Shown here: piece after piece, positions 1 to 39,760 of the stretch
Numbering within the stretch: position 1 is the stretch's first letter
How the letters are laid out: each line of letters opens with the position of its first letter
NCBI RefSeq assembly: GCF_000004075.3
Contig: NC_026659.2
Coordinates: 2,976,001 to 3,040,000, forward strand
Source of the DNA: Cucumis sativus
Lineage: Eukaryota; Streptophyta; Magnoliopsida; Cucurbitales; Cucurbitaceae
DNA length: 64,000 bases
Direction: 5' to 3'
The notes under the pieces: generated by a model
Told to the model about the DNA's origin: nothing
Seen by the model: only the letters and a program-made list of their open reading frames with translations
Databases searched by the model: none
Program-made: the position numbers and the translations under genes

Positions 1-2
1 TC

Positions 3-1712
3 AACAGCGTCGAAGCAGCTCAGAGAATTGAAGGGAATTTTCTTGATGCCATAAGTAAGGATCTGAAAACGTTGAAGTTCCGGATCCCTTCTTACCACAA
101 ATTTTCGGTTCCAGCCCGTTTGATTGATAGGGGGAGTGACACGCCAGGGCAGAGTGAATTCAAGTTGCCAAATTTGCATGACGACGAGGTGTTTGATGAA
201 AGTCCTGCTTTTATAGAAATTCAGGAAATCTATAATGGCTTTACTGATGATCTTTTTAAAAAGTGTTTTTTGTATTTTGCTGTGTTTCCTGACAATGTTG
301 TGTTAAAGAAGCGGTTTCTTACACATTGGTGGATTGGGGAAGGCCTACTGGACTCTTTAGATAATGGGGATGAAACGCCTGAAGTTCTTGCTGGTAAGAT
401 TCTTAAGGAATTTGCAGAGAAGGGTTTGATTGTGCCAGTGATAGAAAAAGAAAAGAAGGTCAAAAGGAGATTTAGAATTCCCCCTCTTGTGCGTTCTGCT
501 GCAATTAAACTGGCCAAACAAAAGGAGTTTTTAGATTATGATATTGGGGACAACCCAACTGGGAAATCTTCCGACTGTGATAGGATTTTTCTAGTGAAGG
601 GGGGAGGCTCTCACCCACCGAAAGCCCCAACGAAGGACCGGAATTTGGAAAAAACAATGGAAGTAATCTTCAATGTTAGCCAACCTTTCCCTGATTCTGC
701 ATTGGAGTGGTTAGCGAAGGAAGGGGAAGTAGACATGAGAACTGCCAAAGTTGTGGAATGGTTGCGAAGGCTGAGAAACCTAAAGGTTCTTTACTTGGGG
801 AGATGGCAGAGTGCAGTTGATGAGCAGCATATCGAAGTTGAAAGCCTTGAGTTCTTAAAAGGTTTGAAGAAAATGAAAAAACTAAGGCTTTTGAGCCTCC
901 AAGGGATATCCTGGATCAATAAGCTTCCAAAGTCCATAAGAACATTGAGTGATCTCAGGGTTTTGGACTTGAAATCTTGTTTCAATCTTGAGAAAATTCC
1001 TCATAGCATAGGATCTCTCAAAATGCTTACACATCTAGATGTCTCTGGGTGCTATATGCTCAATGGGATGCCCAAGAGTATATCTGCACTAACTGAATTG
1101 AGAGTCTTGAAGGGGTTTGTCACAGGAAAGTCAAATCTTAATGATCTAAAAGGCTTAAAGAAGCTGAGAAAGTTAAGCATCAACACAAGCAGACAAGATT
1201 TTCCTAATGAAACCGATCTATGTGTTCTCCAAGGACTTGGGGAGCACGGTAAGCTTCGAAATCTGACAATCTCATGGGGGGCAGAAGACGTGAAGCAACA
1301 ATCTTCGAGCGAACGGAACATTATACGACAGGTATCTAAGAAGTTAAGCAAACAATTATCCAAGACATTGACCAAACAAAGGAGTCAGTTTGGCTATGAG
1401 ATCGTAGAATTGCCAAAAGAGCTAGAGAAGCTTGAGATGGAATGTCTTCCAAAGGAAGAGCTACCCCCATGGCTAAATCCTTCAAAATTGACAAACCTGA
1501 AGAGACTCTACATTAGAGGAGGGAAACTAGCAGGGCTCGGGAACGAGACGTGGAATGCGGAGGTTGTTCGTCTGAAATACATGGCAGATCTGAAGATAGA
1601 TTGGAGAGAACTTCAGAAAATTCTTCCAAATTTGAGTTACTTCCAGAGGGTAAAATGTCCAAGAGTTACTTTTTGTCCCTGTGATGCGAATGGAGTTTGG
1701 ATGAAGCCATAA
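3..1712 (+). CDS. WHD-LRR resistance-like protein without NB domain (RPP13-like 4 type), 5' partial
   Basis: The reading frame is open to the left edge of the window and stops with TAA at 1710-1712, so the start is outside. The visible protein has a winged-helix region around KKCFLYFAVFP, typical of the ARC2/WHD part of plant NLRs. It continues into a site equivalent to MHD that reads IPPLVR, then leucine-rich repeats (LRVLDLKSC, LTHLDVSGC) and a conserved end in GVWMKP. No P-loop, kinase-2 or GLPL motif is present. Its closest relative here is the gene at 8802-10862, roughly three quarters identical by eye; the similarity runs on into the 3' UTR, so they are tandem paralogues. An AATAAA about 80 bases past the stop may be the poly(A) signal. 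Immune function is inferred from family resemblance. Confidence 0.85.
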   Translation, partial: NSVEAAQRIEGNFLDAISKDLKTLKFRIPSYHKFSVPARLIDRGSDTPGQSEFKLPNLHDDEVFDESPAFIEIQEIYNGFTDDLFKKCFLYFAVFPDNVVLKKRFLTHWWIGEGLLDSLDNGDETPEVLAGKILKEFAEKGLIVPVIEKEKKVKRRFRIPPLVRSAAIKLAKQKEFLDYDIGDNPTGKSSDCDRIFLVKGGGSHPPKAPTKDRNLEKTMEVIFNVSQPFPDSALEWLAKEGEVDMRTAKVVEWLRRLRNLKVLYLGRWQSAVDEQHIEVESLEFLKGLKKMKKLRLLSLQGISWINKLPKSIRTLSDLRVLDLKSCFNLEKIPHSIGSLKMLTHLDVSGCYMLNGMPKSISALTELRVLKGFVTGKSNLNDLKGLKKLRKLSINTSRQDFPNETDLCVLQGLGEHGKLRNLTISWGAEDVKQQSSSERNIIRQVSKKLSKQLSKTLTKQRSQFGYEIVELPKELEKLEMECLPKEELPPWLNPSKLTNLKRLYIRGGKLAGLGNETWNAEVVRLKYMADLKIDWRELQKILPNLSYFQRVKCPRVTFCPCDANGVWMKP

Positions 1713-2599: not shown

Positions 2600-4873
2600 A
2601 TGGCTTTGCTGAGTGAAAATTTCCCAACACCCACTTTACATCTTCAAACCCCACCTTCAAATGACCAAACTTTCGATTTAATTCCACCACATGTCAAAGA
2701 ACTCTGGGAAAGATGGAACACCAGAGGCTTAATTCTCTTCAGTCTCTCTTTACAAACGTTCCTAATCCTCTGTGCTCCTCTCAGAAAACGAACCTCAAGA
2801 AAATTCCCCATCTTCCTCATTTGGTCCGCCTATCTCCTCGCCGATTGGACCGCCAGTTTCATTGTTGGTTTAATTTCCAGCAACCAGAGCAAATCCGACG
2901 CCAATGTCTACCTTCTCGCTTTCTGGGCTCCTTTTCTTCTCATCCATCTTGGCGGCCCCGACACCATTACCGCTTTCGCTCTCGAAGACAACGCTCTTTG
3001 GCTTCGCCATTTGATCGGATTGCTTTTTCAGGTCGTTGCTACTGTTTATGTCTTCATTCAAACTATTCCTCAAAACAAGCTCCGGGTTCCTGCAATTTTG
3101 ATGTTTCTTGCAGGGATTATTAAGTATGCGGAACGAACTAGGGCTTTGTATTTAGCGAGTTTGGGGAGTTTTAGAGCTTCCATGCTTAAAGAACCCGACC
3201 CAGGGCCTGATTATGCTAAATTAATGGAGGAATTTACTTGCAAGAAAGATGCCCATTTGCCTACTACCATTCAACTTGTGAATGAGCCTAATCAAGAATG
3301 GAGTCCTTTTACTAGCACTGCAAAAGCGGGTGATCTGAATCAGCTTGAGGTTGTTCAATATGCTTTTCTTTACTTTAACAAATTCAAGGGTTTGATTGTT
3401 GATTTGATTTTTAGCTTTAAGGAGAGAAATGAAAGCAGGGATTTCTTTTTGAAGAGAACCCCAAGTGATGCTCTTAAGGTGATTGAGGTTGAGCTTAACT
3501 TCATATATGAAGTTCTCTTCACTAAAGTAGTGGTTATTCATAATATATTTGGGTCGATTTTTAGATTCATTTCTTCGTGTTCTGTGACTGTGGCTTTGGT
3601 ACTGTTTAGCAGATTGGATAAAACTGATTTTAGGAAACTTGATGTAAGGATTACTTATGCTTTGCTTGTAGGAGCCTTGGCTCTAGATTTTGTATCCTTT
3701 TCCATGACCGTCTTCTCTGATTGGACTATAGCTACTCTTATAAAGGATGATTCAATTTTGGCCACTTTCTTTGAATACCTTCTCTGGCTCAAAAGAAAGA
3801 GAGTGTCTGTGCATAAGAAGTCTCCATTTTCAGGCCTTAAGAAGCTGGACACTCCACGGATATTCCGCCGGTGGCGCGAGTCGGTGTCTCAGTTCAATTT
3901 GATAGCATATTGCCTTAGTGAACGAATCCCAACGGATGATTCAAGAAACACATCAGTCTGTTGTGGCTGCTCTTTTGCTTGGAATAAAACAGTTCGTCTT
4001 CTTCGTCGTATAAAAGATTTTGTCATCGATTATTTAGGTGCTAAAGAGTTCTTCGATGATTGGAAATATGTCTCCAGGCAACCAGTTTTTGAGAAGCTTT
4101 GGGATTTGATCTTTGAGGAGATGCTTGAAAAGTCCAAAGCAGCAGAAACTGTGGAAATTACTGAAGAAATATGTTCATCTAGAGGCTCCTACGTACTGAA
4201 ATCAATGGACCTTCCATCAGAAATCGATATCGGTGAGTTAATATCCGACATTGATGAAGTAGCTTTTGATGAGAGCCTTATGCTATGGCACATAGCAACA
4301 GAACTTTGTTATAGAGACGAACAAAATACCAACACAAACGTAAACGACACTGGTACTAGTTATCGCGAATTCAGCAAGGTCTTATCAGATTACATGCTTT
4401 ACCTCCTGGTGATGCTTCCCTCAATGATGTCGGCCGTGGCTGGAATTGGGGAAATAAGGTTCAGGGATACTTGTGCCGAGGCAAAGAAGTTCTTTGACCG
4501 AAGACGATTCAGTTGTACCTTAGATGAAACTATAATCATGAAGGGTTGTCGAGAAATACTAGCCGTGAATGTTACCGATGCAAATCCTGTGGAAGTAAAA
4601 GGAGATAAAAGCAAATCTGTATTGTTTAATGGTTCGTTACTTGCCAAGAAGTTAAAGAAGTATAATGAGAAATGGGAGATAATGAGTAAAGTTTGGATTG
4701 AAATGTTGGGATATGCAGCCAGCCATTGTAGACCAGACCAACATGCTCAGCAAGTTAGCAAAGGAGGAGAACTCATCACTGTGGTTTGGTTATTAATGGC
4801 ACATTTTGGGCTTGGAGAACAGTTTCAAATCAGTGAAGGCCATGCCAGAGCAAAACTCAGAGTTCATAAGTAG
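2600..4873 (+). CDS. DUF4220/DUF594 multi-pass membrane protein, 757 aa
   Basis: This is a single-exon gene starting at the first ATG after the pyrimidine-rich leader. The N-terminal half carries several hydrophobic segments (around LILFSLSLQTFLILC, FLIWSAYLLADW, LLAFWAPFLLIHLGG, LFQVVATVYVFI). Two more follow near residues 320-370 (FISSCSVTVALVLF, ALLVGALALDFVSF). The C-terminus contains the DUF594 signature ELITVVWLLMAHFGLG followed by SEGHARAKL. That order, DUF4220 membrane domain then DUF594, defines a large plant-specific family of unknown biochemical function. Length and both domains look complete. It lies inside the NLR-fragment cluster, on the same strand as the LRR paralogues; nothing in the sequence shows whether it works with them. 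Confidence 0.93.
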   Translation: MALLSENFPTPTLHLQTPPSNDQTFDLIPPHVKELWERWNTRGLILFSLSLQTFLILCAPLRKRTSRKFPIFLIWSAYLLADWTASFIVGLISSNQSKSDANVYLLAFWAPFLLIHLGGPDTITAFALEDNALWLRHLIGLLFQVVATVYVFIQTIPQNKLRVPAILMFLAGIIKYAERTRALYLASLGSFRASMLKEPDPGPDYAKLMEEFTCKKDAHLPTTIQLVNEPNQEWSPFTSTAKAGDLNQLEVVQYAFLYFNKFKGLIVDLIFSFKERNESRDFFLKRTPSDALKVIEVELNFIYEVLFTKVVVIHNIFGSIFRFISSCSVTVALVLFSRLDKTDFRKLDVRITYALLVGALALDFVSFSMTVFSDWTIATLIKDDSILATFFEYLLWLKRKRVSVHKKSPFSGLKKLDTPRIFRRWRESVSQFNLIAYCLSERIPTDDSRNTSVCCGCSFAWNKTVRLLRRIKDFVIDYLGAKEFFDDWKYVSRQPVFEKLWDLIFEEMLEKSKAAETVEITEEICSSRGSYVLKSMDLPSEIDIGELISDIDEVAFDESLMLWHIATELCYRDEQNTNTNVNDTGTSYREFSKVLSDYMLYLLVMLPSMMSAVAGIGEIRFRDTCAEAKKFFDRRRFSCTLDETIIMKGCREILAVNVTDANPVEVKGDKSKSVLFNGSLLAKKLKKYNEKWEIMSKVWIEMLGYAASHCRPDQHAQQVSKGGELITVVWLLMAHFGLGEQFQISEGHARAKLRVHK

Positions 4874-6305: not shown

Positions 6306-7187
6306 TCATCGATCTTCTTCTTCTCGTCGTTGTTGTTCTGTATTTTTCTTCTTTTCTAGTTCTTTTTTGAATTGAATCTCTCCCATCATCTTAGCGATCA
6401 ACGGAAGTCCACCACATTTCTTCAGCAATTTCACTTTCAATTCCTTGAAGTTCAGGATTTCATCAGGGATCGAAATTCCATCTTTCACAACTTCTTGCCG
6501 GAAAATTTCCCAGAAACTTTCTGGGTCTTTATGAGGAACCAAACACCTCAAATTTCCCTCTCCTACCATAGCTTTTGCAGCTTTCTCACTTCTACTCGTC
6601 AAAATCACAGCTCCTCCATTCCCTTTCGGAAACCCATCTCTTAATTTCTCCCCATTTTTCTCACAAGAATTCAAATCCCAGTACCAATCATTCTGTTCTT
6701 CCTCTGTTTTAAACTCTTGAACATCATCCAGTACAATCAGATACCGTTTCCCTCTCAGTTGAAGTCGGAGAGCGTAGAGGAGGCTGCCGAGTGTTTCGCC
6801 ACCGGGAAACTTCGTGTCAACTCCGAGAGAGATTAGGATTCTCTTCAGAAGAGCGATTTTGGGATCGGCGTCTTCTGTGAAATTTTCCGACATTGAGATC
6901 CAAATTCTGGGGAGGAACTTGGATTTTACTTCTGGGTTTTGGAGAAAGGCTCGAGAAATTGTTGACTTTCCGATACCTCGTACTCCGATGATTCCGATTG
7001 CTCTGAAGCCGTTTCCGCCGCCGCTGATAGGTGGTATGTCGAGCATTTTCTGTAGAACTAGAAGCTCGTTTTCGACGCCGTGGACGGTGGATCCGTCGAC
7101 GGTTTGTGTAACCCATTCGGAGATTCGTGTTCTTGTTTCGGCGGGCGCGGTGGGTTGGGTCTCGGAATTTTGGAGTAGGCTGTTCAT
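6306..7187 (-). CDS. NB-ARC-only protein (At5g45490-like), 293 aa
   Basis: This single-exon gene begins at the first ATG of a frame whose upstream in-frame stop is at 7260-7262. Plant NB-ARC motifs appear in order: P-loop GVRGIGKS (68-75), an RNBS-A-like segment FLPRIWISMSENF (about 91-103), kinase-2 LIVLDDV (150-156), RNBS-B GGAVILTSR (191-199) and CGGLPL (258-263). It ends about 30 residues later in a charged Lys/Glu/Arg tail. There is no coiled-coil or TIR domain in front and no WHD or LRR behind. P-loop lysine and kinase-2 aspartates are intact, so nucleotide binding is plausible. It is divergent from the WHD-LRR gene at 8802, which begins where this one ends in NLR domain order. Similar stand-alone NB proteins exist in Arabidopsis (At5g45440, At5g45490, from memory), so simple truncation is not the only reading. 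Confidence 0.88.
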   Translation of the reverse strand: MNSLLQNSETQPTAPAETRTRISEWVTQTVDGSTVHGVENELLVLQKMLDIPPISGGGNGFRAIGIIGVRGIGKSTISRAFLQNPEVKSKFLPRIWISMSENFTEDADPKIALLKRILISLGVDTKFPGGETLGSLLYALRLQLRGKRYLIVLDDVQEFKTEEEQNDWYWDLNSCEKNGEKLRDGFPKGNGGAVILTSRSEKAAKAMVGEGNLRCLVPHKDPESFWEIFRQEVVKDGISIPDEILNFKELKVKLLKKCGGLPLIAKMMGEIQFKKELEKKKNTEQQRREEEDR

Positions 7188-7384
7188 GTCTCCGGTGGAC
7201 GTGGGTTTGGGGATTTGAGGTGCTTTGATGGCGGAATGAGTGGTTAGTTGATTTGGAGTTTATCCCTCATATGGAAAACGACGCATCTCTTTCATTGGAC
7301 TTTTGAGTTTGAAAGTGTCCCTCCCTTCAAAACATGCAACTTTTCAACTACCTTACCGTGGATAGTTAGGCATTTGATATTAAG

Positions 7385-7550
7385 TATAGCAAAATTAGGA
7401 CGAGTATGTTAGTGATAGATTAATATTTGCAATATAGTCTATCATTGATAGAATTTGACAATTTTGGCTATATTTACAAATTTTTTTTTAAAAATGTTGC
7501 TATATAGTTAATTATTTTGAATCTAATAGCTAAATTTGCAATTATCCATT
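7385..7550. repeat. AT-rich interspersed repeat, copy 1
   Basis: Contains the block TCTATCATTGATAGAATTTG followed by GGCTATATTTACAAATTTT and TGTTGCTATATAG. The same order of elements recurs at 8105-8285 and 54710-54845. I remember closely similar repeats as abundant in cucumber and melon intergenic DNA. A MITE-like origin is possible, but no clear ends are visible. Confidence 0.6.
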
Positions 7551-8104
7551 TAGTAAAATACTTTGGTTTGGATGTCAAGGGAATTTATAGGTTCCATTTT
7601 GGTAATTACTTTAGTTAAATTCCAATTTCGTTTAGGGGTCAAGGAAACTAGTAGAGATTTTTTTTTTTTTTTACTACTGGGTTAACGGACGATGAATAAC
7701 TAGATGAATATATATCCATATGTTGTTTTCTTCTTTCAACAAAGTTTGTAATGTGCAACAAATAATCATGTCTGATTGGGTAGAGACATATCTTTTTCCC
7801 TTTTTTCTTCTTCTTGTAATTTTCTTATCACTTTCCCCTTTTAATATTACTCTTGTTTCCTTCATTCTCCTTTACCTCTTTTCCTCTTCTATGCTTGTTG
7901 GGGCAATCATGGAAGAATAATGAGAATGAGGAGGAGGATGAGTAAAGGTTATCATAGGAAGATGAAGGGGAAAAAGATTTAAGATAAAAAAGAAGTTACA
8001 ATGTTTTCTTTTATCTAAAAAAAATGTCATTGAGAGGACTAAATAAATAAATATACATATTTATGGTTATTTTTTAAAATAAAAAATAAATTAAAATATA
8101 TACG

Positions 8105-8285
8105 AGTTATAACAAATTTTTTGAATTCTATAGAAACGGATAAACTTTTATCATTGTGTATAGTGGCACTGATTGAAAGATATTAGTGTCTATTAAATGT
8201 TTGTTATTGATAGAATATGAAATTTTGCTATAGCTCGTAAATATTTCGTCAAATTTACTATTTTTGACAATTTTTCTATATCATT
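8105..8285. repeat. AT-rich interspersed repeat, copy 2
   Basis: Shares TTGATAGAATATGAAATTTT, GCTATAGCTCGTAAATATTT and CTATTTTTGACAATTTTTC with the copy at 54710-54845, and more distantly with 7385-7550. It is part of the same degenerate family. Confidence 0.6.
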
Positions 8286-8801
8286 CTTGCATGTTTTTCA
8301 ATTGTTGTAATTGTAATAAGATTCTATTGATTGATTGGATTTAAATTGTAAATGCACTTATAATTTTGAAGCTGTCACATCTGCCTTTACTATTACATTT
8401 GATTCTAATAAGATTGTGCATTTGATTAACGATTTGGATGTGACCTCCATTCGTTTATTATGATTATGGAACACAAGTAAATAACAACAAACGTGATTAG
8501 CTAGGGTTTTACGTGAATAAAACTGATCTTATAGTTGAAAAAGATTTATTGAAATTTAAAAATATTAAAATGAGCTAACATCATATACTTTTCAAAGAAT
8601 TTATATACTTTTCTTATTTTCTTCTTTTTTGGGCTAAAATGAAGCGAATATAACTTAAAAGCACCCAAATGGTAAGTAACCTTCAATGTTACATTTTCGT
8701 TTTTTAATTTTCTTCTTCAAAGTTCCAACGAACAAATAACCCATTTTATATTTGCTAACTTCTCCGTTTCATTTCACTTCACAAAGCTTTCTCTTCCAGC
8801 C

Positions 8802-10862
8802 ATGGCTTCCCCTTCTCTGATCCTCCATCCTCAAAACTCAACCCCAATTCCAACAATTCCTCAAATGATCGAAACCCTTTCAGATTTATACAAAAAACTC
8901 TCCACAGCTCTCCAAAAACATACCACCCAGGCCGAACCCAACAAACCAACACAACAAATACCGGGAATTAGTGGCACCATCGACAACGATAAAGACCCCA
9001 AAGTTTTGAAATTGCAGAGCAACATCATGCTTTTGATGGAGGCGTTGGAGACGATGATCAATAATCGCGACAAAAAGCTCAATGTGCCGATACAGAGCAT
9101 AGAAACCAATCTTGATATAGTTATCAAAAGGGTCAATGATGCCCCTCCTGGTTCTCCACTGACCCAGAAAATCGGAGAGGACTATCTCGACGCCATTATC
9201 CAGGATGTAAGAACGTTGAAGTTCCGCATTCCTTCGTACCGCAAGTTGTCTTTGGCCAAAACCGTCGCCCATTCAGGTGGCAGGGGAAGTCATGCACTGA
9301 CGCCGATTGAGTTTGTGTTGCCTAATTTGCAAGGTGATGAGGTGTTCGACGAGAGTCCTGCTTTCAAAGAAGTTCAGAAAATTTACTATGAGTTTAATGA
9401 TGATATTTTTAGGAAATGCTTTTTGTATTTTGCTGTGTTTCCTGAAAATGTAGTGTTAAAGAAGCAGTTTCTTACCTATTGGTGGATTGGAGAAGGAATA
9501 TTAGACGTTAAAGGTACTGGAGATTCAAATCTAGAGGATGAGGCTGGTGGAATTCTTCTGAAATTTGTAGAGAAGGGTTTGATCGTGCCAGTGAAGGAAG
9601 AACAGAAGAAGGTCAAAAAGAAATTTAGAATGCCCCCACTTGTGCGTTTTGCTTCCATTAAACTGGCCATTGAAAACAAGTTTTTGAATTTTGATGATTG
9701 GGGTAACCCAACTTATAGATCATTCGGCTGTGACAGAATTTTACTGGTGAAGGGAGGAGGCTTTCATCCCCCGGAAGCACCGACGAAGTATCAGAATTTG
9801 GAAGAAAAGATGGTAACAATCTTCAATGTTAGCCAGCCTTTCCCCGATTCTGCATTGGAGTGGTTGGCTAAGAAAGGGGATGTAGACATGAGAACTACCA
9901 AAGTTGTGGAATGGTTGCTAAAGCTGGAACACCTTAAAGTTCTTTACTTGGGGAGGTGGCAAAGTGAAGTTGATGATGAGGAGCATGTGATTGAGGTTTT
10001 AAGCCTTGAGTTTTTAGAAGGATTGAGGAAAATGAAAAAACTGAGGCTTTTGAGCCTTCAGGGGATCTTTTGGATCAATGAGCTTCCAAATTCCATAAAT
10101 ATGCTCTGTGATCTCAGGGTTTTAGACTTGAAATGTTGCTACAATTTGGAGAAACTGCCTGGCGGTATAGGATCTCTCAAGAGCCTTACACATTTAGATG
10201 TCACTGGCTGTTATATGCTCAATGGAATGCCAAAGAGCATATCTAGACTCACTCAACTTAGAGTCTTGAAGGGGTTTGTTACAGGGAAGTCAAGTCTTAA
10301 TGATCTAAAAGGCTTAAAGAAACTGAGGAAGTTGAGCATCAACACAAACAGCCCAGGTTTTCCGGATGCCAAAGATCTACGTGTTCTTCGAGAACTTGGG
10401 GAGCACGGTGAACTTCGAAATCTCTCGATTATGTGGGCAGCTGAAGGGTTGAAGTTCGATCAACCACCTTCCAAGACAGAAAAAGGAACGTTTATACGAG
10501 AACTAACCAAACAAATTAGCAAACTAACCGCACAACCTAACGATGAAACCTCAGAATTGCCAAAGAACTTAGAGAAGCTGGAACTCGAATGTCTACGGGA
10601 GAAAAATCTACCCAACTGGCTAAATCCTGATAACTTGACAAGCTTGAAGAAACTCTACATTAGAGGGGGGAGCCTAGAAACGCTCGGGAATAAAAAGTGG
10701 GAGGCGGCCGAGGTTGTTCGGCTCAAATACATGACGGAATTAAAGATAAAATGGAGAGAACTTCAAAACAATTTTCCAAAGCTGAGTTACTTGCAGAAAG
10801 TAAAATGTCCAAGAGTTACTCTCTTCCCCTGTGATGCCAGTGGAGTTTGGATAAAGCCATAA
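8802..10862 (+). CDS. WHD-LRR resistance-like protein without NB domain (RPP13-like 4 type), 686 aa
   Basis: This is a single-exon gene with a strong start context (CCATGG). Residues 20-140 are largely helical in composition. The winged-helix region runs from about 190 to 290 (CFLYFAVFP at 206-214, WWIGEG at 227-232). The MHD-equivalent site at 277-279 reads MPP rather than MHD. LRRs follow from about 365 (LRVLDLKCC, LTHLDVTGC), ending in GVWIKP. No P-loop, kinase-2 or GLPL exists anywhere in the chain. It is a tandem paralogue of the partial gene at the left edge and head-to-head with the NB-only gene at 6306-7187. Family knowledge suggests a role in immune signalling; losing the His and Asp that sense ADP in ordinary NLRs implies any regulation is non-canonical. 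It could also be an NLR decaying by domain loss, but two paralogues have kept the same architecture. Confidence 0.9.
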   Translation: MASPSLILHPQNSTPIPTIPQMIETLSDLYKKLSTALQKHTTQAEPNKPTQQIPGISGTIDNDKDPKVLKLQSNIMLLMEALETMINNRDKKLNVPIQSIETNLDIVIKRVNDAPPGSPLTQKIGEDYLDAIIQDVRTLKFRIPSYRKLSLAKTVAHSGGRGSHALTPIEFVLPNLQGDEVFDESPAFKEVQKIYYEFNDDIFRKCFLYFAVFPENVVLKKQFLTYWWIGEGILDVKGTGDSNLEDEAGGILLKFVEKGLIVPVKEEQKKVKKKFRMPPLVRFASIKLAIENKFLNFDDWGNPTYRSFGCDRILLVKGGGFHPPEAPTKYQNLEEKMVTIFNVSQPFPDSALEWLAKKGDVDMRTTKVVEWLLKLEHLKVLYLGRWQSEVDDEEHVIEVLSLEFLEGLRKMKKLRLLSLQGIFWINELPNSINMLCDLRVLDLKCCYNLEKLPGGIGSLKSLTHLDVTGCYMLNGMPKSISRLTQLRVLKGFVTGKSSLNDLKGLKKLRKLSINTNSPGFPDAKDLRVLRELGEHGELRNLSIMWAAEGLKFDQPPSKTEKGTFIRELTKQISKLTAQPNDETSELPKNLEKLELECLREKNLPNWLNPDNLTSLKKLYIRGGSLETLGNKKWEAAEVVRLKYMTELKIKWRELQNNFPKLSYLQKVKCPRVTLFPCDASGVWIKP

Positions 10863-14152: not shown

Positions 14153-15162
14153 GTAATTTCCTTTCTATAAGCTTCTGCTATGGATATTTATCTATAATTT
14201 TTATCTCTGTTTTTTCTTCCAAACAATGATGCTTTCTTGTGTATGCTCATATTCATTTCTACGCTGAACTGATGATGAAACCAAACCCTTGAAAACCCTA
14301 AGTTTTTCTGTAGTTGACCCCTTTTCTTTGTTTCTTGTAATTGTTACCTTAAAATGAATCTTTAAGTCTAGGGATCTCTTATCAACTCTATAGGGACTGG
14401 AGAATGGAAGCTAGCTACATAGATTTATCTGTTTGTTATTTGCTATAATCTTCAAATAGCTCAGGCTCCGGCATTTCATTTTTCGTTTTTTAAATTTGAA
14501 AATTAAATCTATTTCTTCTCATTTCTTACTATGGTTTGTGTTTGTACTAAGTACAAGTGTTACTTTTTAGTACAACAAATGAAACGTTTGACGTAAGCAT
14601 ATTTGATAAATATAAGAATTGAATTATTAATAAAATTTTAGAAACAAAAATAACTTTTAAAAAAGTTATTTCTTAGGTCCTCTCACTAATAACCATTTGA
14701 TTTTTTGTTTTTGAAAAATAAGTTTATAAACACTTTTTTTTGGGTATAAATTTCTCTCGTTCTTATCTACTTTTTACCAATGTTTTCAAAAAAACCAATT
14801 CGAGTTTTGTTGGAAACTATAAAAAGTAGTTTTCTAAAACTTGTTTTTGTTTTTTTTGTAATTTGGGTTAGAATTTATTTATTTTATCTAAGAAAATGAA
14901 AACTACTTAAAGAAATGGTGAGAAAGTAGACATAATTCTCGAAAACGAAAAACTTAATGGTTGCTAAATTGAGTGTAAGTTTTTCAAATTTGATTTGGCT
15001 TTTAAAAATATTGGTAAAAATAAAATAATAAAGCATGCAATTTGAGATTAGAAAAGGTGTTTACAGGCTTAATTCTAAAAAATAAAAACAAAAAACCAAA
15101 TGGTTACTGTCATAGAAAACCATACTTTTCGTCCTAATTTTAAAACGGTATTTGTTTCAGCT

Positions 15163-18100
15163 ATGGACTCAGAGGCAGGGCAACTTCGGGCACCCACCTT
15201 GACTCAACTGAGTCACTTGGTGGCAGATGATGTTAGGAGCAATCCAAAGTTTCAGGGAACGGCAGAAAAAATTATACAAAATTGTGGTGACAATCCTACT
15301 CTAAATAGGATCATTGCTGAAGCCTTGAATCATATCGCAAAGCACAATGGAGATAATTGGAGAGTAGAAAGAGCTTTGGAAGAAATGGATAGCCGTTGTT
15401 CCACAGGCAAAACATCAAAGAGTAAACAAATATCACTGATGCGGTATGGGTTCGACATGTTGCCAAGAAGTGACTTGGCAATGATTAATTGTTGCTGGCA
15501 CAGCAGACAATTTTTCCGCAACAACGGTGGAGTTCATTACAATGTGTTGATTACAAACTGGATATTAGAAGAATGTTTTGGCCTTGTTGATAATTTTGAC
15601 AAGGCATATCATCAGGGACATGAAGTTTTAATGAACCTCATAGAGCATGACCTACTCAAAACTGAAAAAGATAATGATAATGTCGTCATTATAGAGGAAT
15701 TGGTACGCGACATTCCTGATACTCGATATACTGGTTTCGTTTGGAAGCCTACTTTAGGATTGAGTGGGGTGTATGAGGATAAAAAGTGGCTAGGTCTTGA
15801 CAGTGTTGGGCCTGCTGATGGAATGACCAGAACAAGTGAGAAGGACTGGAAAGATGTTTCAGTACTGTTGGTTGATGGATATCATCTTTGCCAGGAGGTT
15901 ATCGAAACATATTTTACGACCCTGAAGAATCTCCAAGTTCTTGCCATTTTCAGACCCAGGATCAAAGCACTGCCCGTCAGTTTATCCATGTTGGGAAACC
16001 TTCATTTCCTTGTGCTTAAAGACTGTGATCTGCTGGAGAAGATTGATGACCTTGTGAATCTGAAGGCATTAACAGTTCTAGAGATATCAAATGCTAAAAA
16101 CGTTAAGCATATCCCAGAGAACTTATTTGAGTGTTTATCTAAGCTCCGAAGCCTTAACTTATCTAAAACTGGAATTGAAAAACTTCCTTCTTCTCTGTCA
16201 AAGCTTGATGAACTCCGATCCATCAACTTTCGGGGGTGTCACTGCCTAAAGGTCTTGCCAATCTTAAAAGGACTCGTGAAGCTGCAGTTGCTTGATGTTT
16301 CTGGTGCAACTTCACTGGAACGTCTTGGAGATAAAAGCATAAATACCCTTCAAGATCTTCAACAACTTGACCTTTCTCAAACTCAGATTGTACATGTTCC
16401 ATTTCTTAAGAAAATGAAGCAGCTTTCTCGTTTATCATATCGAGATTGCAAAGAACTGATTAGACTGCCAAACCTTCGAGGGTTGAGCGGGCTTCAAGTT
16501 CTTGATCTCTCTGGCGCTCTAAAGCTAAAGGAAATTCAGGATGACACCTTTTCAGAAGATAATGACCTAAAAATGCTTGATCTCTCCAAAACTGCAGTCA
16601 GTTGTTTGCCTTGCACCATCCGTTATCTTTCAAATCTTGAGCTGCTCAATCTCTCTGAGATGTCAAAATTGGTTGAACTTGAAGATGACACCTTCAATAA
16701 TATGGCATGCCTTCGTCATCTCAATCTCTCAAAATCTCTAGTTGAGAAACTACCTTCACTCAATGGGCTTATTAATATACAAGAACTTAAACTACAAGAA
16801 TGCAGCAAACTGCAGGAGTTACCAAGTCTCACTGCTCTGAAGAAATTGGAAGTCCTTGATTTATCAGGTTGTGTTTCCTTTAAGGAATTTAAAGAAGGCG
16901 AATCCTTTATCCACATGACTTATCTCCAGCGCCTCGACCTGTCAGAAACTAAAATTAAAAATTTGCCTGACCTATCTGGTCTTCATAACCTCTCTCATCT
17001 TCTACTAAGGAATTGCGTCAATCTTACAAAACTTCCATGTATAAGCTCATTTAAACTTAAAGAGCTCAATGTCTGTGGTGCGGAAAATTTGAGAGATTGG
17101 GAAGCTGAATTACCTGATAATATGAATCAGTTGGAAATCCTCAACCTATCAGAAACACAACTAAGATCTGTACCCTTGAACAATTATACCAACCTTAGGG
17201 AGCTTTCTCTAAGAGGTTGTGAATTGCAGACGACAGTACTATTGGATAAACTCACAAACCTTGAGGTCTTGGATTTGTCGAGGACACTGATCAATTCTTT
17301 ACAAATACAAACAATCACAAATCTTACCAACCTTAGACAACTTCTACTAACAGATTGTTCAGAACTACAAGAGATTCCTACTCTAGAACCACTTGTGAAG
17401 TTAGAGGCTCTTCATTTAAAGGGGACAAAAGTCAAGAAGTTCCCTTGTCAGATGGCTAAGGTAACTCGACTAATGCATCTAGACTTGCCAGCCTCTGCAG
17501 ACACTCTTGAACTCAATTGGACAGGTATAAAATCACTTCCTGGAGAGCTAAACTGGGACCTAATTGGTATGCCGTCTGAACTTAAGAATATTACAACTAA
17601 GCCTTCCATGATTGTGAGAAATATGAATTCTTTCGAAACTATGAAGGCGATACCTGACGTATGGAACTCATGCTTCAATAAATTTTTCATCTCTGTATGC
17701 CCTTTAAAAACAGGTGAGGAGGATGAAGAAATCTGTGTACATGAAGATGGGACTAGCTTTCAAGATATCTACTTTCATTTCATGTCTTATCGACACGAGT
17801 ATTCCCCGTTTTTGGAAATTCGCAGATTTGAGAGCTTTCCAACTGGCCTTGAGGATGCTCTTATGAAAGTTGAATATGTTTCTTTAGTTGAAAATGGGTT
17901 TATTAGAAGCTTATCTGAATTGGGTAATGCAAATAATTTAAAAGGCTGTTGGATTTGGAGTTGTACCAACCTGGAGAGTCTAATGAAGAAAGACAAGGAT
18001 AACGATAATCTCACTTTATTGAACAATCTAAAGATCCTATGGATATCCAACCTTCCTATCTTGAAAAATGTGCATTCTACAGGCCTTCAATTCGAGAGCA

Positions 18101-18399
18101 TCACAAACCTCACACAGCTGTATATAGATTCTTGCCCACAGCTTGAGACTCTGTTTAAGTCCTCTCATCTCTCAAAAAGCCTCGAGATTCTCCACGTTAA
18201 GTTTTGTGATAGATTGAAGTTTATATGTGAATCTAAAGAAGAGTGTATTTTAGAGAAGTTGCACTCCTTGAATCTGGTAGAGTTGCCTGAGTTGACAGAC
18301 ATTGGCTTGAAACTTCCATCCTTGAGAACAGCTAATATTAGGAACTGTCCTAAACTTGAAAGGGACCTGATTTGTGAGCAATGGGACGAAGTCAGATAA
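15163..18399 (+). CDS. Large LRR resistance-like protein starting in ARC1 (At4g19050-like), 1078 aa
   Basis: I chose the ATG at 15163 because it follows a good intron acceptor (CAG at 15158-15160). The frame is open further upstream to 15100, but that part would be intron. Residues 33-55 (AEKIIQNCGDNPTLNRIIAEAL) look like the end of an NLR ARC1 domain with GLPL decayed to GDNPTL. Residues 88-190 resemble a winged helix (GFDMLPRSDLAMINCCW, LITNWILEECF, GHEVLMNLIEHDLL) ending in IEELVRDIP where MHDVVRDMA is expected. From about residue 205 there are more than 20 LRRs, many with the LxxLxLSxT pattern. P-loop and kinase-2 are absent. A possible 3'-UTR intron runs from 18493 to 19184. Function in immunity is inferred from the family. 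Confidence 0.87.
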   Translation: MDSEAGQLRAPTLTQLSHLVADDVRSNPKFQGTAEKIIQNCGDNPTLNRIIAEALNHIAKHNGDNWRVERALEEMDSRCSTGKTSKSKQISLMRYGFDMLPRSDLAMINCCWHSRQFFRNNGGVHYNVLITNWILEECFGLVDNFDKAYHQGHEVLMNLIEHDLLKTEKDNDNVVIIEELVRDIPDTRYTGFVWKPTLGLSGVYEDKKWLGLDSVGPADGMTRTSEKDWKDVSVLLVDGYHLCQEVIETYFTTLKNLQVLAIFRPRIKALPVSLSMLGNLHFLVLKDCDLLEKIDDLVNLKALTVLEISNAKNVKHIPENLFECLSKLRSLNLSKTGIEKLPSSLSKLDELRSINFRGCHCLKVLPILKGLVKLQLLDVSGATSLERLGDKSINTLQDLQQLDLSQTQIVHVPFLKKMKQLSRLSYRDCKELIRLPNLRGLSGLQVLDLSGALKLKEIQDDTFSEDNDLKMLDLSKTAVSCLPCTIRYLSNLELLNLSEMSKLVELEDDTFNNMACLRHLNLSKSLVEKLPSLNGLINIQELKLQECSKLQELPSLTALKKLEVLDLSGCVSFKEFKEGESFIHMTYLQRLDLSETKIKNLPDLSGLHNLSHLLLRNCVNLTKLPCISSFKLKELNVCGAENLRDWEAELPDNMNQLEILNLSETQLRSVPLNNYTNLRELSLRGCELQTTVLLDKLTNLEVLDLSRTLINSLQIQTITNLTNLRQLLLTDCSELQEIPTLEPLVKLEALHLKGTKVKKFPCQMAKVTRLMHLDLPASADTLELNWTGIKSLPGELNWDLIGMPSELKNITTKPSMIVRNMNSFETMKAIPDVWNSCFNKFFISVCPLKTGEEDEEICVHEDGTSFQDIYFHFMSYRHEYSPFLEIRRFESFPTGLEDALMKVEYVSLVENGFIRSLSELGNANNLKGCWIWSCTNLESLMKKDKDNDNLTLLNNLKILWISNLPILKNVHSTGLQFESITNLTQLYIDSCPQLETLFKSSHLSKSLEILHVKFCDRLKFICESKEECILEKLHSLNLVELPELTDIGLKLPSLRTANIRNCPKLERDLICEQWDEVR

Positions 18400-20211: not shown

Positions 20212-22737
20212 TTAAACAGGTTCTCTAGCTATCTTCACTGGTTTCTCTTTTAAAAATGCTACATCACCATTGGGACTCATCAGTAAGTGATGATCCGATT
20301 CCTCATCTTCGCTCCTTGCGGATGTAGAAGATGCAAGAGATTCTGACCCGTCATCGTCATCGTCATCTGAATTATGGCATACCAGACCACAGAGAATAAT
20401 TAAACAGGACGACGAGAACAAACGTCAGAGCAGGTTTAATGTTTATTTATATCCCATTACCATCACCATTATGTTCATCCCGAATGTAAATTGAGGTAAA
20501 ACGACGCCGAGTTAATAATCATAAATAGATGCTTTGTCATGACTCATGATAGATAGTTTCATTAAGTTATTGAAACGCCAAAGGAAAAAGCACTACTAAA
20601 TTGAAGAATGCATATGATAAAATATTGAGAAACATACCAGAATAGGCCGGATGATCGGGAAGGTGTCTCACTGCTGAAATCTGAATGCTTTCTGGAAGAA
20701 GACAATTGCAGAATGAGCCTGAAACTCAAAATAACAGTGTGATAAGGTGAAAGAACTATGCAACCATCAAGAACACTCAGCAAAATACAAGAATATATAC
20801 TAGTAGTTGATGTTCTACGAAACACCTTTCTACACAAGACTCTAATGCTTCTGGAGGACGAAGAATCAAAGTTAGCGTTAAGAGCATATGAGGTAAACAA
20901 ACCATTTTCCCCATTCATCACTAAACTACATGAATCAAAATCAAAGTAGTAACGTATCTGATGATTTATAGGTGCTGTCAGGCAGATCACAGAGCCTCTA
21001 AGATGGGAATCAAATACAAGGGAATCCTAAAATCTCACAGGGTTAGGATAAATCAAGAACTATAGATGAATTAAAGAACAAAACTAGAAGTTATTCATTT
21101 TATAGACATTTTTGTTTATCCGTTTTATCAAAGTTCACACCATAAAAATATGTCATTTTGTATAGAATTGTCATACAACTCTTATTCAACCCAAATTTGT
21201 AAATCTTTAGATAGGCAACAATATGGTAAATGCCAATGAAATGAAGGATCAAACTAGAACAGTGGAAGATGTAAAGATTAGAAATGAAAGTTAAGTAAAA
21301 ATTCTAGAGACAAAATAAACATTTAAACCTAGGTTTATAGCATGAGGTGGCTTGAGAACATATAACTCAGTTATTCTATCTACGAGGAGGTTCTGCAGTA
21401 GACACCGTTATTCATTTAAACATTTAAGGATAATAGCGTGATTCAAAATTGCATGCTGAGGAAGAAAAGATTTCTTACCTAATCTAGCAAGTCTATTCAC
21501 CCATCCAGGAATGGACTTCCCAGTTAGCCGCATGCTGACTTCCTCTGTAAAATGGTTGCAATTTTTGGCAATCAAATGATATGTGTCACCGTGGTACTCT
21601 GAAGAAAGGTGCTCCATAAACAAACGAAATTCTGCACGAGATAAATCAGTGCTTCCCAATAATACAGACCTTCGGAAAATAAATCCAGGGCAACTTTTTG
21701 GCTCTACCTCGAACACCCCACTGGTAGGATATTCATGTGCTCCAAAGCCATACTCCATACCATGGACTGAGCATCAAATCAAGTAAAAACAATTTGTTAG
21801 GATACTTCCTAACAAGAATAAGTATATTTCATATATTGAGAATTAACTACGAACTACAATATGATCCAAGTTTATGGTACTTGGGACCCTCTCTCTTGAA
21901 AATACTACTCAAGATCTATCTACTCAACAACTCCCACTTTTTCACTCACGAACTTCTTATCTATAACCACTACTCTCCGCCTAAATATTTAATCACCCTT
22001 CTACCCCTAACCCTATACTAATCTCAGTATCTAACACAATTTTATACCAGGATAAGATGCAAACAGAACAGCACATCAAGATCAGAAATGAATTTTCAAA
22101 TGGAATCATGTATCAACAATTATGTTACTATGACACTGTTGGTGATCATAAATTAAATATTACAAAAGCCTACTGTCCCCAACATTCATCAATATATTTC
22201 AAGAAAAAGCTCAATATCTCTGAAAGAGAAGTTCCAATAGACCATACTCTGAAATTCTTGATGCTCAGATATCCCATCAGTCAAGTCAGGAAAGCATAAA
22301 TATACAACTGCATGCTAGTACTACCTCAGATAATGAGTGAGCTTAAACATATGCCCCTAATAACTCTCCAAGTTCAACTAATTCCAGCTCCCCCCAATCC
22401 AATACAACTAAAATATACCATTTAGATATCCATGCTTCATATATTTATCTCAGGATAACCAATTTACCACCATTGCAAACAGAACTTCCCAGTCGCCAAT
22501 AACAGTGATAATAAACAAATGAATCTATAATAAGGAACACAAGAACAGTTCTATCGTAAAGAAGTATATAACTTACATACCTTCAATACCCGAATGAAAT
22601 ATTCCGAGTCCAACCCAATAGAGATAGTTATTAATAGGAGTAAGATCATAGACATTAAGATATAGCAAAGCATGACCGCTGCCCTGCTCCTTGTCCTCGG
22701 TAAAATCCGGGCTAGATCCCACTGGAAACAGACGCAT
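20212..22737 (-). CDS. deSI-like PPPDE-domain cysteine isopeptidase, 226 aa
   Basis: Four coding exons join in phase: 22581-22737, 21479-21766, 20638-20718 and 20212-20366, all with GT-AG borders, giving 681 bases with stop. The PPPDE fold is clear: LYLNVYDLTP near residues 25-34, then GIFHSGIEVHG with the predicted catalytic His at 48, then HLIAKNCNHFTEE with the predicted catalytic Cys at 122. The tail SPNGDVAFLKEKP follows an acidic stretch and resembles other plant members. Family members are thiol peptidases related to animal DeSI desumoylating enzymes; the substrate of plant members is not shown by sequence. Six Asp residues are coded across the last splice junction. A 5'-UTR exon lies upstream (22939 to about 23110), with an intron at 22761-22938. 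Confidence 0.93.
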
Positions 22738-28130: not shown

Positions 28131-28244
28131 AACCTCTCCAATTCACCAAACTCCGATCAGTTTCTCATCTTTCTTCTATTTATCTCTCTAAATTTTACTT
28201 TCAAATCCAAATTTGAATCTGGGTTTTGAAGATTCAGGGGAATT

Positions 28245-28997
28245 ATGTACCACACCACTAAATCAGAGTCCGATTTTTGTTTCCTAGACCCAATTCGCCG
28301 CCACTTATTAGGTGAATCGGATATTTCCGCCGCCGCCGCCGCTCCCCTCGGCAGACCCACTCCCGTTTTCACTCGGAGTGGTAGTTTTAGTAGCTTAATT
28401 CCATGTCTTGAAGACAATTGGGGTGATTTGCCTCTCAAGGTTGACGACTCCGAAGATATGATGCTCGCCGCCGTTCTACGGGACGCCGTCGGTGTTGGAT
28501 GGGTTCCATCGCTAGGAAGTTGTGATTTTGGGTTTTCTGAGGTGAAATCAGAGCCGGAGGTGATTCCATTGAGTTTCCCCGCGGTGTTACCGAATGTGAC
28601 GATGAAGCCGACCGTGGTACCAGAGAAAGGGAAGCATTATAGAGGAGTGCGACAACGGCCATGGGGGAAATTCGCGGCGGAGATTCGAGACCCAGCGAAA
28701 AATGGAGCAAGAGTTTGGCTTGGAACGTACGAGACGGCAGAGGATGCGGCGTTGGCTTATGATCGAGCGGCTTACCGAATGCGAGGATCAAGGGCTTTGC
28801 TTAATTTCCCCCTCCGTGTCAACTCCGGCGAGCCGGAACCAGTTCGGGTGACATCAAAGCGATCGTCGCCGGAGGTATCTTCGTCGCCGAAGCGAAGAAA
28901 GAAAGTTGGGTCCGCTGTGGAGAGTGTAGGAGTACAAGTGGAGCAACAAGTGGCAAGCTTTACACATGGAGGACAGCTGTTTGTTAGCCAATGCTAA
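28245..28997 (+). CDS. AP2/ERF transcription factor, group IX type, 250 aa
   Basis: This is a single-exon gene. One AP2/ERF domain spans residues 131-189 ([19 protein letters not shown] at its start, [16 protein letters not shown] at its end). The Ala and Asp of AAEIRD at the diagnostic positions mark the ERF rather than the DREB subfamily. The wording of the domain fits group IX, the ERF1A/ERF2-like ethylene and defence factors that bind the GCC box. A basic KRRKK at 216-220 is a probable nuclear localisation signal. A short Ala run (about residues 29-33) is coded by a GCC triplet repeat. No EAR repressor motif is seen, so activation is the more likely role. Confidence 0.95.
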
Positions 28998-37830: not shown

Positions 37831-39760
37831 TCAGGAATCTTGGTGAAGGAAATGAGCGGCTACGATTCGACGTTGTATTTTGCCAGAAGCAGTTTTGGGG
37901 AGTGAATCCGTAAGAAACACTTTCTTGGGGACTTTGAAAGCAGCCAAATTGTTCTTGCAAAAACTCATTACATCTTCCTCTCCAATCTTTGATCCTTCTC
38001 TTGGAATTATTGCACAATTTATCTAACACACAAACAAACAAAATTACCATTATTTTATGTTTTTTATTTTCACCTCAAAATACGTTAAAACTAATTAAAT
38101 AATTAACTGTGTTGAAAAAGTATTTATACAAACAAATTGTTCTGACAAGAAATTTAATTAAAATTAATCTCAAGTAAACATGCATGCAGTAATTGACAAA
38201 ATATATATTAAAATAGAAAGAGATAAAAATAAAAGAAAAAATTTACCTCCTCCCCATACTTATCGTCAGGAACTCCAAATGCGACAGCTTGGGCCACGTC
38301 CGGATGAGCCAACAACACTGCGTCCACTTCAATCGGCGATATCTTTTCCCCTTTTTTCATTTTTTTTATTTAATCAAAAACATATACCAATGAATAAAGA
38401 TATTGATATAATTTTGGAATTTACCTCCACGGTTGATCAATTCCTTGATCCGACCAACAAGATGCAAATACCCATCGGAATCAAAGTACCCAATATCTCC
38501 GGTGTGGAACCATCCGTAACGGAAAGCTTCCTCATTCGCCACCGGATTACTTTTGTACCCCTTCGTCACATTCGAACCTTTGATACAAACTTCTCCTTTC
38601 ACATTCGCTTCCTGAACGATGCCGTTCTCGTCCAGTATCACCATTTCTTGACCCACCGGTTTCCCCACTGACCCAGCCTTGTGCGGACCGTTTTCCGGCA
38701 ATGGGTTCGTCGACATCAGATGTGTCGCTTCCGTCATCGCGTACGCCTCCAGAACCGGCGCCCCAAACGCCTCCTCCATCCGGTTCATGATACTTGGAGC
38801 TAATGATGCACTGCAGCTTCTAATGAACCGGAGCTTCGGGTAAACCTTTTCTGGTTTGTTCGAGTGCCGGTCTAGTATGATTTGATGGATTGTAGGTACG
38901 GCAGTGTACCACGTGGCGTTGTATTGGATCATGTCGGCCCAGAATGTCGACGCCGAGAATCTCCCGGCTGCTGGTAAAGCAACGGCGGCTCCGGCAGCTA
39001 GTGAGCTTAGTAATCCAGCCATTAAACCGTGGACGTGGAATAATGGAAGGACAATAACGGTGGAGTCGGACTCAGTGAGTTGGTAAACCGATTTAATATT
39101 GTTAACCGACGAGGCCAAATTGAACTGAGTCAATGGAACGCCTTTGGGACGGCTGGTGGTGCCTGACGTGTGAAGGAATAACGCCACGTCGGATCCTTCA
39201 TTGAGGATTTCAAGAACTGAGCCATACTCGGAACCATTCGAGTTGGACGGAGTCAAAGAGAGAACCAACTCGGCACCTGCATCGGGAAGTGAAGCGGTCA
39301 CGTGCTTGATTTTGAGTTTAGACGCGGCCGTCTCGGCCGGGCTGTTGCCTTCTATAGACGTAACCAAGAGCTTTGATTCAGAGTCCGATAAGTAAAATTC
39401 GAACTCCTCAGCCGTGTAGGCGGCGTTGAGTGGCGCCGCAGTGGCTCGAGCACGGATCACAGCTAAAAACATGATAACAAACTACAAAACCAAACAATCA
39501 AAATCAAAAGTTTTAATCCGATGGGTGGTTCTATTCTATTGAAACTAATATAATACCTCGACGGTGTTAGGGAAAACAAGGGCAACGACATCGCCGGGCT
39601 CGATACCGCCGGCGACGAGTTTAGAGGCGGCGGAATCAACGAGGTGTTGAAGACGGGAATGTGAGAGATCGAACTTTCCGGATACGGATAAGGCTCTCCT
39701 GTCAGGAAAGGTTCCGGCGACGGATTGCAATAATCCGGAGAGAGTAATTGGAAACCCCAT
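37831..39760 (-). CDS. AAE3: Oxalate--CoA ligase / acyl-activating enzyme 3 type, 518 aa
   Basis: Four exons, 39557-39760, 38425-39481, 38247-38350 and 37831-38022, join in phase (1557 bases with stop). It is a member of the ANL adenylating superfamily: AMP-binding motif HTSGTTSRPKG at residues 172-182, YAMTEATH, WFHTGDIGYFDSDGYLHLVGRIKE, and the C-terminal PKTASGKIQRR with the catalytic Lys at about 503. Length and the start MGFPITLSGLLQ fit AAE3, which converts oxalate to oxalyl-CoA with ATP and CoA. That is the first step of the CoA-dependent oxalate degradation pathway used in defence against oxalate-secreting fungi and in mineral homeostasis. The C-terminus (HQDS) is not a peroxisomal SKL signal, consistent with a cytosolic location. 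Related 4-coumarate-CoA-ligase-like enzymes are the main alternative. Confidence 0.93.

Follow-up and report, generated by a model that had tools for sequence, protein, structure and literature searches.

Work on plant nucleotide-binding leucine-rich repeat receptors (NLRs) has mostly dealt with single proteins or with paired complete receptors, and a locus of cucumber (Cucumis sativus) raises the question of whether the nucleotide-binding (NB) part of such a receptor can be kept on one gene and its winged-helix domain (WHD) and leucine-rich repeat (LRR) part on another. We examined a 64,000-nucleotide stretch carrying this locus (C5:2976001-3040000, hereafter the window) and searched the genome (226.6 Mb, 88 contigs), copy numbers being given throughout among the candidates scored. 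An initial annotation had described a split NLR here, formed by a minus-strand NB-only gene and a divergent plus-strand WHD-LRR gene. Open reading frames and Pfam matches agreed with the coordinates, domain content and orientation of these two genes, and the NB and WHD-LRR parts do lie on two genes; they do not form an isolated pair. We found that one NB-only gene adjoins three NB-less NLR-type genes, which begin at two different domain borders, and one gene of the DUF4220/DUF594 type. With two more NB-less genes at the locus, a clean split into one pair becomes less likely, and the two-gene split-receptor reading is too simple. We tentatively read the locus, with a probability of about 0.45, as an old, long-retained cluster of half-genes derived from NLRs, in which the NB protein would most likely be a separate subunit acting in trans with one or more WHD-LRR proteins.

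A single NB-only gene beside three NLR-type genes that lack an NB domain

The NB-only gene opens at its first in-frame ATG at 7187 and closes with a TGA stop that ends at 6306. Pfam NB-ARC matched its product at 82.7 bits (cut-off 23.5); the aligned part covers profile positions 17-213 of 248 and stops short of the profile end. A P-loop (GVRGIGKS) lies at residue 68, RNBS-A, Walker B (LIVLDDV) and RNBS-B are readable, and GLPL at residue 260 is followed by 30 residues to the end, the length of tail that had been proposed. This protein contains the P-loop, Walker B, RNBS-B and GLPL of a coiled-coil (CC) NLR (CNL), and the NB-ARC and LRR that a CNL joins in one polypeptide are here on separate genes and opposite strands. 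Among solved structures it scored best with ZAR1 (78.2 bits) and next with NRC2a (39); by these matches the gene is of the CC type, and by its predicted domains an N-class truncated NLR. The only other copy scored, at C5:13.338-13.344 Mb (C5:13338559-13344214, L043/L044), is 89% identical over 458 bp and contains stops. It is broken into two parts ~5 kb apart, and the intervening frames resemble a copia polymerase by eye. Relatives of LRR2, LRR3 and the DUF594 gene were not found in the 20 kb read around this broken copy.

The facing gene, LRR2, showed no NB-ARC in a Pfam search and matched LRR_14 at 75.1 bits and, just above the cut-off, WH_DRP (Table 1). A genome search with LRR2 returned itself and one close copy, the tandem paralogue LRR1 (C5:2975754-2977709), in which the WH_DRP match (24.3 bits) falls below the cut-off; the next matches were local LRR similarities. 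ZAR1 was the best whole-protein match of LRR2 among solved structures (76.7 bits, spread over three stretches, of which the final one extends to the C-terminus), so that ZAR1 (RPP13-like protein 4, PDB 6j5t) is the best whole-protein solved relative of the NB protein and LRR2 alike. Across 649 codons, dN/dS (nonsynonymous over synonymous divergence) between LRR1 and LRR2 was 0.229/0.672 (NG86), 0.247/0.53 (YN00) and 0.234/0.586 (maximum likelihood), that is 0.34-0.47, which points to moderate purifying selection after the duplication. The initial annotation had proposed purifying selection as a check; these values suggest it for the tandem pair, with one segment of LRR2 weaker, as given below.

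About 187 residues precede the WHD of LRR2. Residues 19-137 form four helices in a low-confidence model, and neither Pfam nor the PDB gave a significant match to this part; no Pfam match to an N-terminal CC, TIR or RPW8 domain was found in either the NB or the LRR2 protein. Ten cucumber CNLs served to build a CC profile, which recovered L011 at 208.9 bits in one leave-one-out positive control. The LRR1 N-terminus ranked 103rd of the 5,204 rows reported, nearly all of them shuffles, and LRR2 was not reported; a CC origin of these N-termini went undetected by this profile, a diverged CC being possible.

LRR3 encodes ~1,100 residues, and no close copy of it was found in the genome search. Standard searches with its 283-residue N-terminal stretch showed no WHD, the sole sub-threshold match being AHH (E 0.24). 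We then used a custom ARC1-WHD profile of 191 columns, built from 16 CNLs of the same genome (20 CNL loci were read, and NB-ARC matches genome-wide numbered 89). The N-terminal part of LRR3 matched columns 19-167 at 19.3 bits, whereas none of 5,000 shuffles scored above 8.1 bits. Seen with this custom profile only, the N-terminus of LRR3 is, judged by its sequence, a degenerate ARC1 tail and WHD. Between LRR1 and the NB gene sits the fifth gene, with Pfam matches to DUF4220 (346 bits) and DUF594 (85 bits), whose product is likely a membrane protein on the basis of its hydrophobic segments; elsewhere in the genome, the DUF594 family was represented by two distant loci and one short degenerate match.

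All five genes lie inside about 19 kb and have long intact open frames. Their relatives are rare among the candidates scored, with one close copy for LRR2, none for LRR3 and one broken copy for the NB gene. The initial annotation had listed neither LRR1, which crosses the left edge of the window, nor LRR3 nor the DUF4220/DUF594 gene, and had not noted that the MHD motif is lost, as described below.

Table 1. Positions of the cluster genes and associated features in the window.
Feature	Position	Strand	Remarks
LRR1, tandem paralogue of LRR2	1..1712	+	653 aa, 66% identical; start just left of window (L042:1751)
DUF4220 + DUF594 gene	2600..4873	+	757 aa, six hydrophobic 19-aa segments
NB-only gene (NB + most of ARC1)	6306..7187	-	293 aa, single open frame
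Intergenic stretch between start codons	7188..8801		1,614 bp, 28.7% GC
Dispersed repeat copy	7409..7554		three other copies among those scored
Second dispersed repeat copy	8069..8272		dozens of copies among candidates scored, mostly 74-84% identical
LRR2, WHD-LRR gene without NB domain	8802..10862	+	686 aa, single open frame
WH_DRP match of LRR2, residues 212-281	9435..9644	+	Pfam 27.9 bits, cut-off 27
MHD-motif position of LRR2, reads Met-Pro-Pro	9630..9638	+	Ile-Pro-Pro in LRR1
LRR region of LRR2	9915..10859	+	final ~100 residues align with ZAR1 C-terminal end, 18.4 bits
LRR3, long LRR gene without NB-ARC	15100..18399 (about)	+	ARC1-tail + WHD profile match in N-terminal part; start codon uncertain

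The NB gene and LRR2 are divergent neighbours, as had been proposed. The claim that the DNA between their start codons is a shared divergent promoter found no support: these 1.6 kb are AT-rich, contain two dispersed repeats and have only short matches to the region preceding LRR1. Upstream of LRR2 and LRR1 the alignments were short and chance-like, with 58 columns at 79% immediately downstream, and these short-only matches speak against a promoter inherited by duplication. Ordinary neighbours in the window were a PPPDE peptidase gene (21411-21773), an AP2-domain gene (28230-28994) and an AMP-binding enzyme (38369-39481). Elsewhere on C5, two NLR genes ~750 kb apart (C5:7944028-7944717 and C5:8697398-8698087) have identical NB-ARC scores and frame lengths and represent either a recent duplication or an assembly duplication.

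Domain borders and origin of the two halves

On the ARC1-WHD profile, the NB gene covers columns 7-65, LRR2 columns 95-175 and LRR1 columns 90-186. The borders of the NB gene and of LRR1/LRR2 are complementary with zero overlap, and the 25-30 columns around the ARC1/WHD junction are matched by neither. The split at a common domain border that had been claimed is seen on the profile in this complementary form, with the junction columns in neither product, and the border of LRR3 differs from that of LRR1/LRR2. The MHD motif of the WHD closes the NLR switch on ADP. It reads MHD or IHD in 15 of the 16 aligned cucumber CNLs and MHH in the remaining one, and it is missing from LRR1 and LRR2. The statement that the two genes hold each core NLR part once finds no support as worded, since no CC, TIR or RPW8 domain is recognisable, MHD is lost and there are three NB-less candidates instead of one.

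In trees, the NB protein groups with ZAR1 (support 85/81) on a very long branch, and LRR1/LRR2 are likewise nearest to ZAR1 on a long branch, with poor support (42/94) and a ZAR1 row that is 35% filled. Holding the NB protein with L011 (p-AU 0.175, approximately unbiased test) or NRC2a (0.218) was not rejected, nor was holding LRR1/LRR2 with the L026/L027 group (p 0.48) or with L011 and L006 (0.088). The closest cucumber CNLs were L011 and L006 for the NB protein and L027, L026 and L029 for LRR1/LRR2. This difference in nearest relatives argues mildly against a common origin for both halves, which is nonetheless possible.

Known NLR systems resemble the cucumber genes in part. ZAR1 carries its domains in one protein, whereas the cucumber genes are separate, show no recognisable CC and have lost MHD. 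RPS4/RRS1 and RGA4/RGA5, to which the pair had been likened, are divergent neighbouring NLR genes, as are the NB gene and LRR2. Both members of those pairs are full NLRs, one with an integrated decoy domain. In the cucumber pair, unlike those, each gene is a fragment, neither member is full-length and no extra integrated domain scored above the Pfam cut-off; the analogy holds for the divergent arrangement and is otherwise weak, since those are pairs of complete NLRs. A cucumber survey lists one N-only gene among 57, the intronless Cucsa.237530, described as being without RNBS-D and MHD (PMC3599390). Cucsa.237530 may be the NB gene described here, although that survey places it in the TIR family and the NB gene is CC-type by its matches. 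Surveys of truncated NLRs (CN, TN and N classes) start from NB-containing genes, and NB-less WHD-LRR neighbours would escape them.

Counterparts in Arabidopsis and Brassica

The initial annotation had pointed to At5g45440-At5g45520 of Arabidopsis, and genes with these unusual features are described in the literature for At5g45440-At5g45510. AT5G45440 is described, together with AT4G19060, as having a single NB-ARC domain (PMC11752215), AT5G45490 as NBS, like its counterparts in B. rapa and B. oleracea (PMC4008172), and AT5G45470 as DUF594 (PMC12713574). AT5G45510 is reported to have LRRs and to be without NB-ARC, and the same source suggests that it was originally misannotated, as NB-ARC is absent (PMC5093994). 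NB-only genes (At5g45440 and At5g45490), an NB-less LRR gene (At5g45510) and a DUF594 gene (At5g45470) are thus close by gene number in Arabidopsis, as they are closely linked in cucumber, the Arabidopsis side standing on these descriptions. From these shared unusual parts, the linkage is probably old and conserved between cucumber and Arabidopsis.

Descriptions of the individual genes vary. The class given for AT5G45490 differs between papers, being CN, CNL or NBS (PMC2175511, PMC4008172, PMC8116057); PMC8116057 labels it CNL and AT4G19060 NB only, and PMC6312357 treats AT4G19060, AT5G45440 and AT5G45490 together. In B. oleracea, Bo2g127270 and Bo2g127290 (AT5G45490-like) are near Bo2g127320 (AT5G45510-like) by gene number (PMC7795555); that source types all three genes as NLR and so does not establish an NB-less Bo2g127320. 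At5g45490 and At5g45510 are listed among 15 NBS-LRR-related genes significantly induced in Col-0 4 h after salicylic acid (PMC2175511), and an At5g45510 isoform is reported among membrane-fraction proteins (PMC5387099). Among the papers listed on split or bipartite NLRs, and on DUF594 with NB-ARC, LRR or disease resistance, none described such a cluster, which is not proof of its absence in print.

Separate subunits or separate functions

When fragments of Rx are co-expressed, its function is restored in trans. In the reading that we favour, the NB protein, which keeps its nucleotide-binding motifs, would bind nucleotide and associate in trans with one or more WHD-LRR proteins into a soluble NLR-like complex. 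This complex would serve other immune components as a regulator or sensor and would not itself kill cells, a role expected because no death-effector domain is recognisable and the MHD nucleotide sensor is gone. Several observations weigh against such an association. Three NB-less candidates compete for a single NB protein, and the MHD position now reads Met-Pro-Pro (LRR2) or Ile-Pro-Pro (LRR1). The nearest CNLs of the NB protein and of LRR1/LRR2 fall in separate branches of the NB tree; LRR2 scores 99.4 bits with cucumber L027 versus 76.7 bits with ZAR1, and when only its first 315 residues are compared, NRC1, Sr35 and MLA13 are slightly better matches than ZAR1. Residues 291-370 of LRR2 are less constrained (dN/dS 0.196/0.283, YN00). 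An AlphaFold2 model that combined LRR2 and the portion of LRR1 inside the window had a mean predicted local distance difference test score (pLDDT) of 42.5; its top Foldseek match was ZAR1, and this support is weak because only parts of the LRR exceeded a pLDDT of 50. A model of the NB protein alone (pLDDT 36.7) was unusable and was set aside. The likeness to Arabidopsis rests on published gene descriptions and not on alignment, and At5g45480 mutants are described as sensitive to osmotic stress, which is not an immunity phenotype (PMC9773991).

Nearly as likely as an association in trans is that these genes are old NLR relics with separate jobs, for instance as modulators or decoys, linked by descent from one ancestral cluster, with no contact ever made between the NB protein and the WHD-LRR proteins. 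Such a history would fit the differing nearest CNLs of the halves and the loss of MHD, a duplication of the LRR gene that brought no second adjoining NB gene, an NB copy that dispersed without an LRR gene, and an LRR3 that starts at another border than LRR1/LRR2. Against it, parts that are rare among the scored candidates all lie within about 19 kb, and papers place the same kinds of genes together in Arabidopsis; chance co-retention over that time, though possible, is less likely. A more elaborate form of the trans association, in which the free NB-ARC1 protein is a subunit shared by all three NB-less WHD-LRR proteins, with the DUF4220/DUF594 protein as a possible tether and the genes linked since before cucumber and Arabidopsis diverged, seems to us unlikely as a whole.

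We consider it improbable that an inversion broke an ordinary NLR into two neighbouring halves which now rebuild one switch, as the initial annotation had suggested for the two products. Complementary borders speak for that proposal, as does ZAR1, which is the best whole-protein structure match of both halves and their neighbour in both trees (85/81 for the NB protein, 42/94 for LRR1/LRR2). Their force is reduced by the loss of MHD, by the two additional NB-less genes, one with a different border, by the extra N-terminal residues of LRR2 (~187, with no recognisable CC), and by nearest cucumber CNLs that differ, both tree placements sitting on long branches and tolerating alternatives. Least probable of all is that the genes are functionless NLR fragments in decay. 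The lost MHD, the missing junction columns, the adjoining repeats and the already broken second NB copy would suit decay; five long intact frames, readable NB motifs, a dN/dS below 1 between LRR1 and LRR2 and Arabidopsis descriptions in which such genes appear to be present do not.

With an NB part and a WHD/LRR part on separate linked genes, apparently kept across distant rosids, the NLR switch could be tested as separate subunits. Surveys that require NB-ARC would overlook the NB-less members of such clusters. A functional link of the DUF4220/DUF594 family to NLR-type genes, if there is any, would be of interest.

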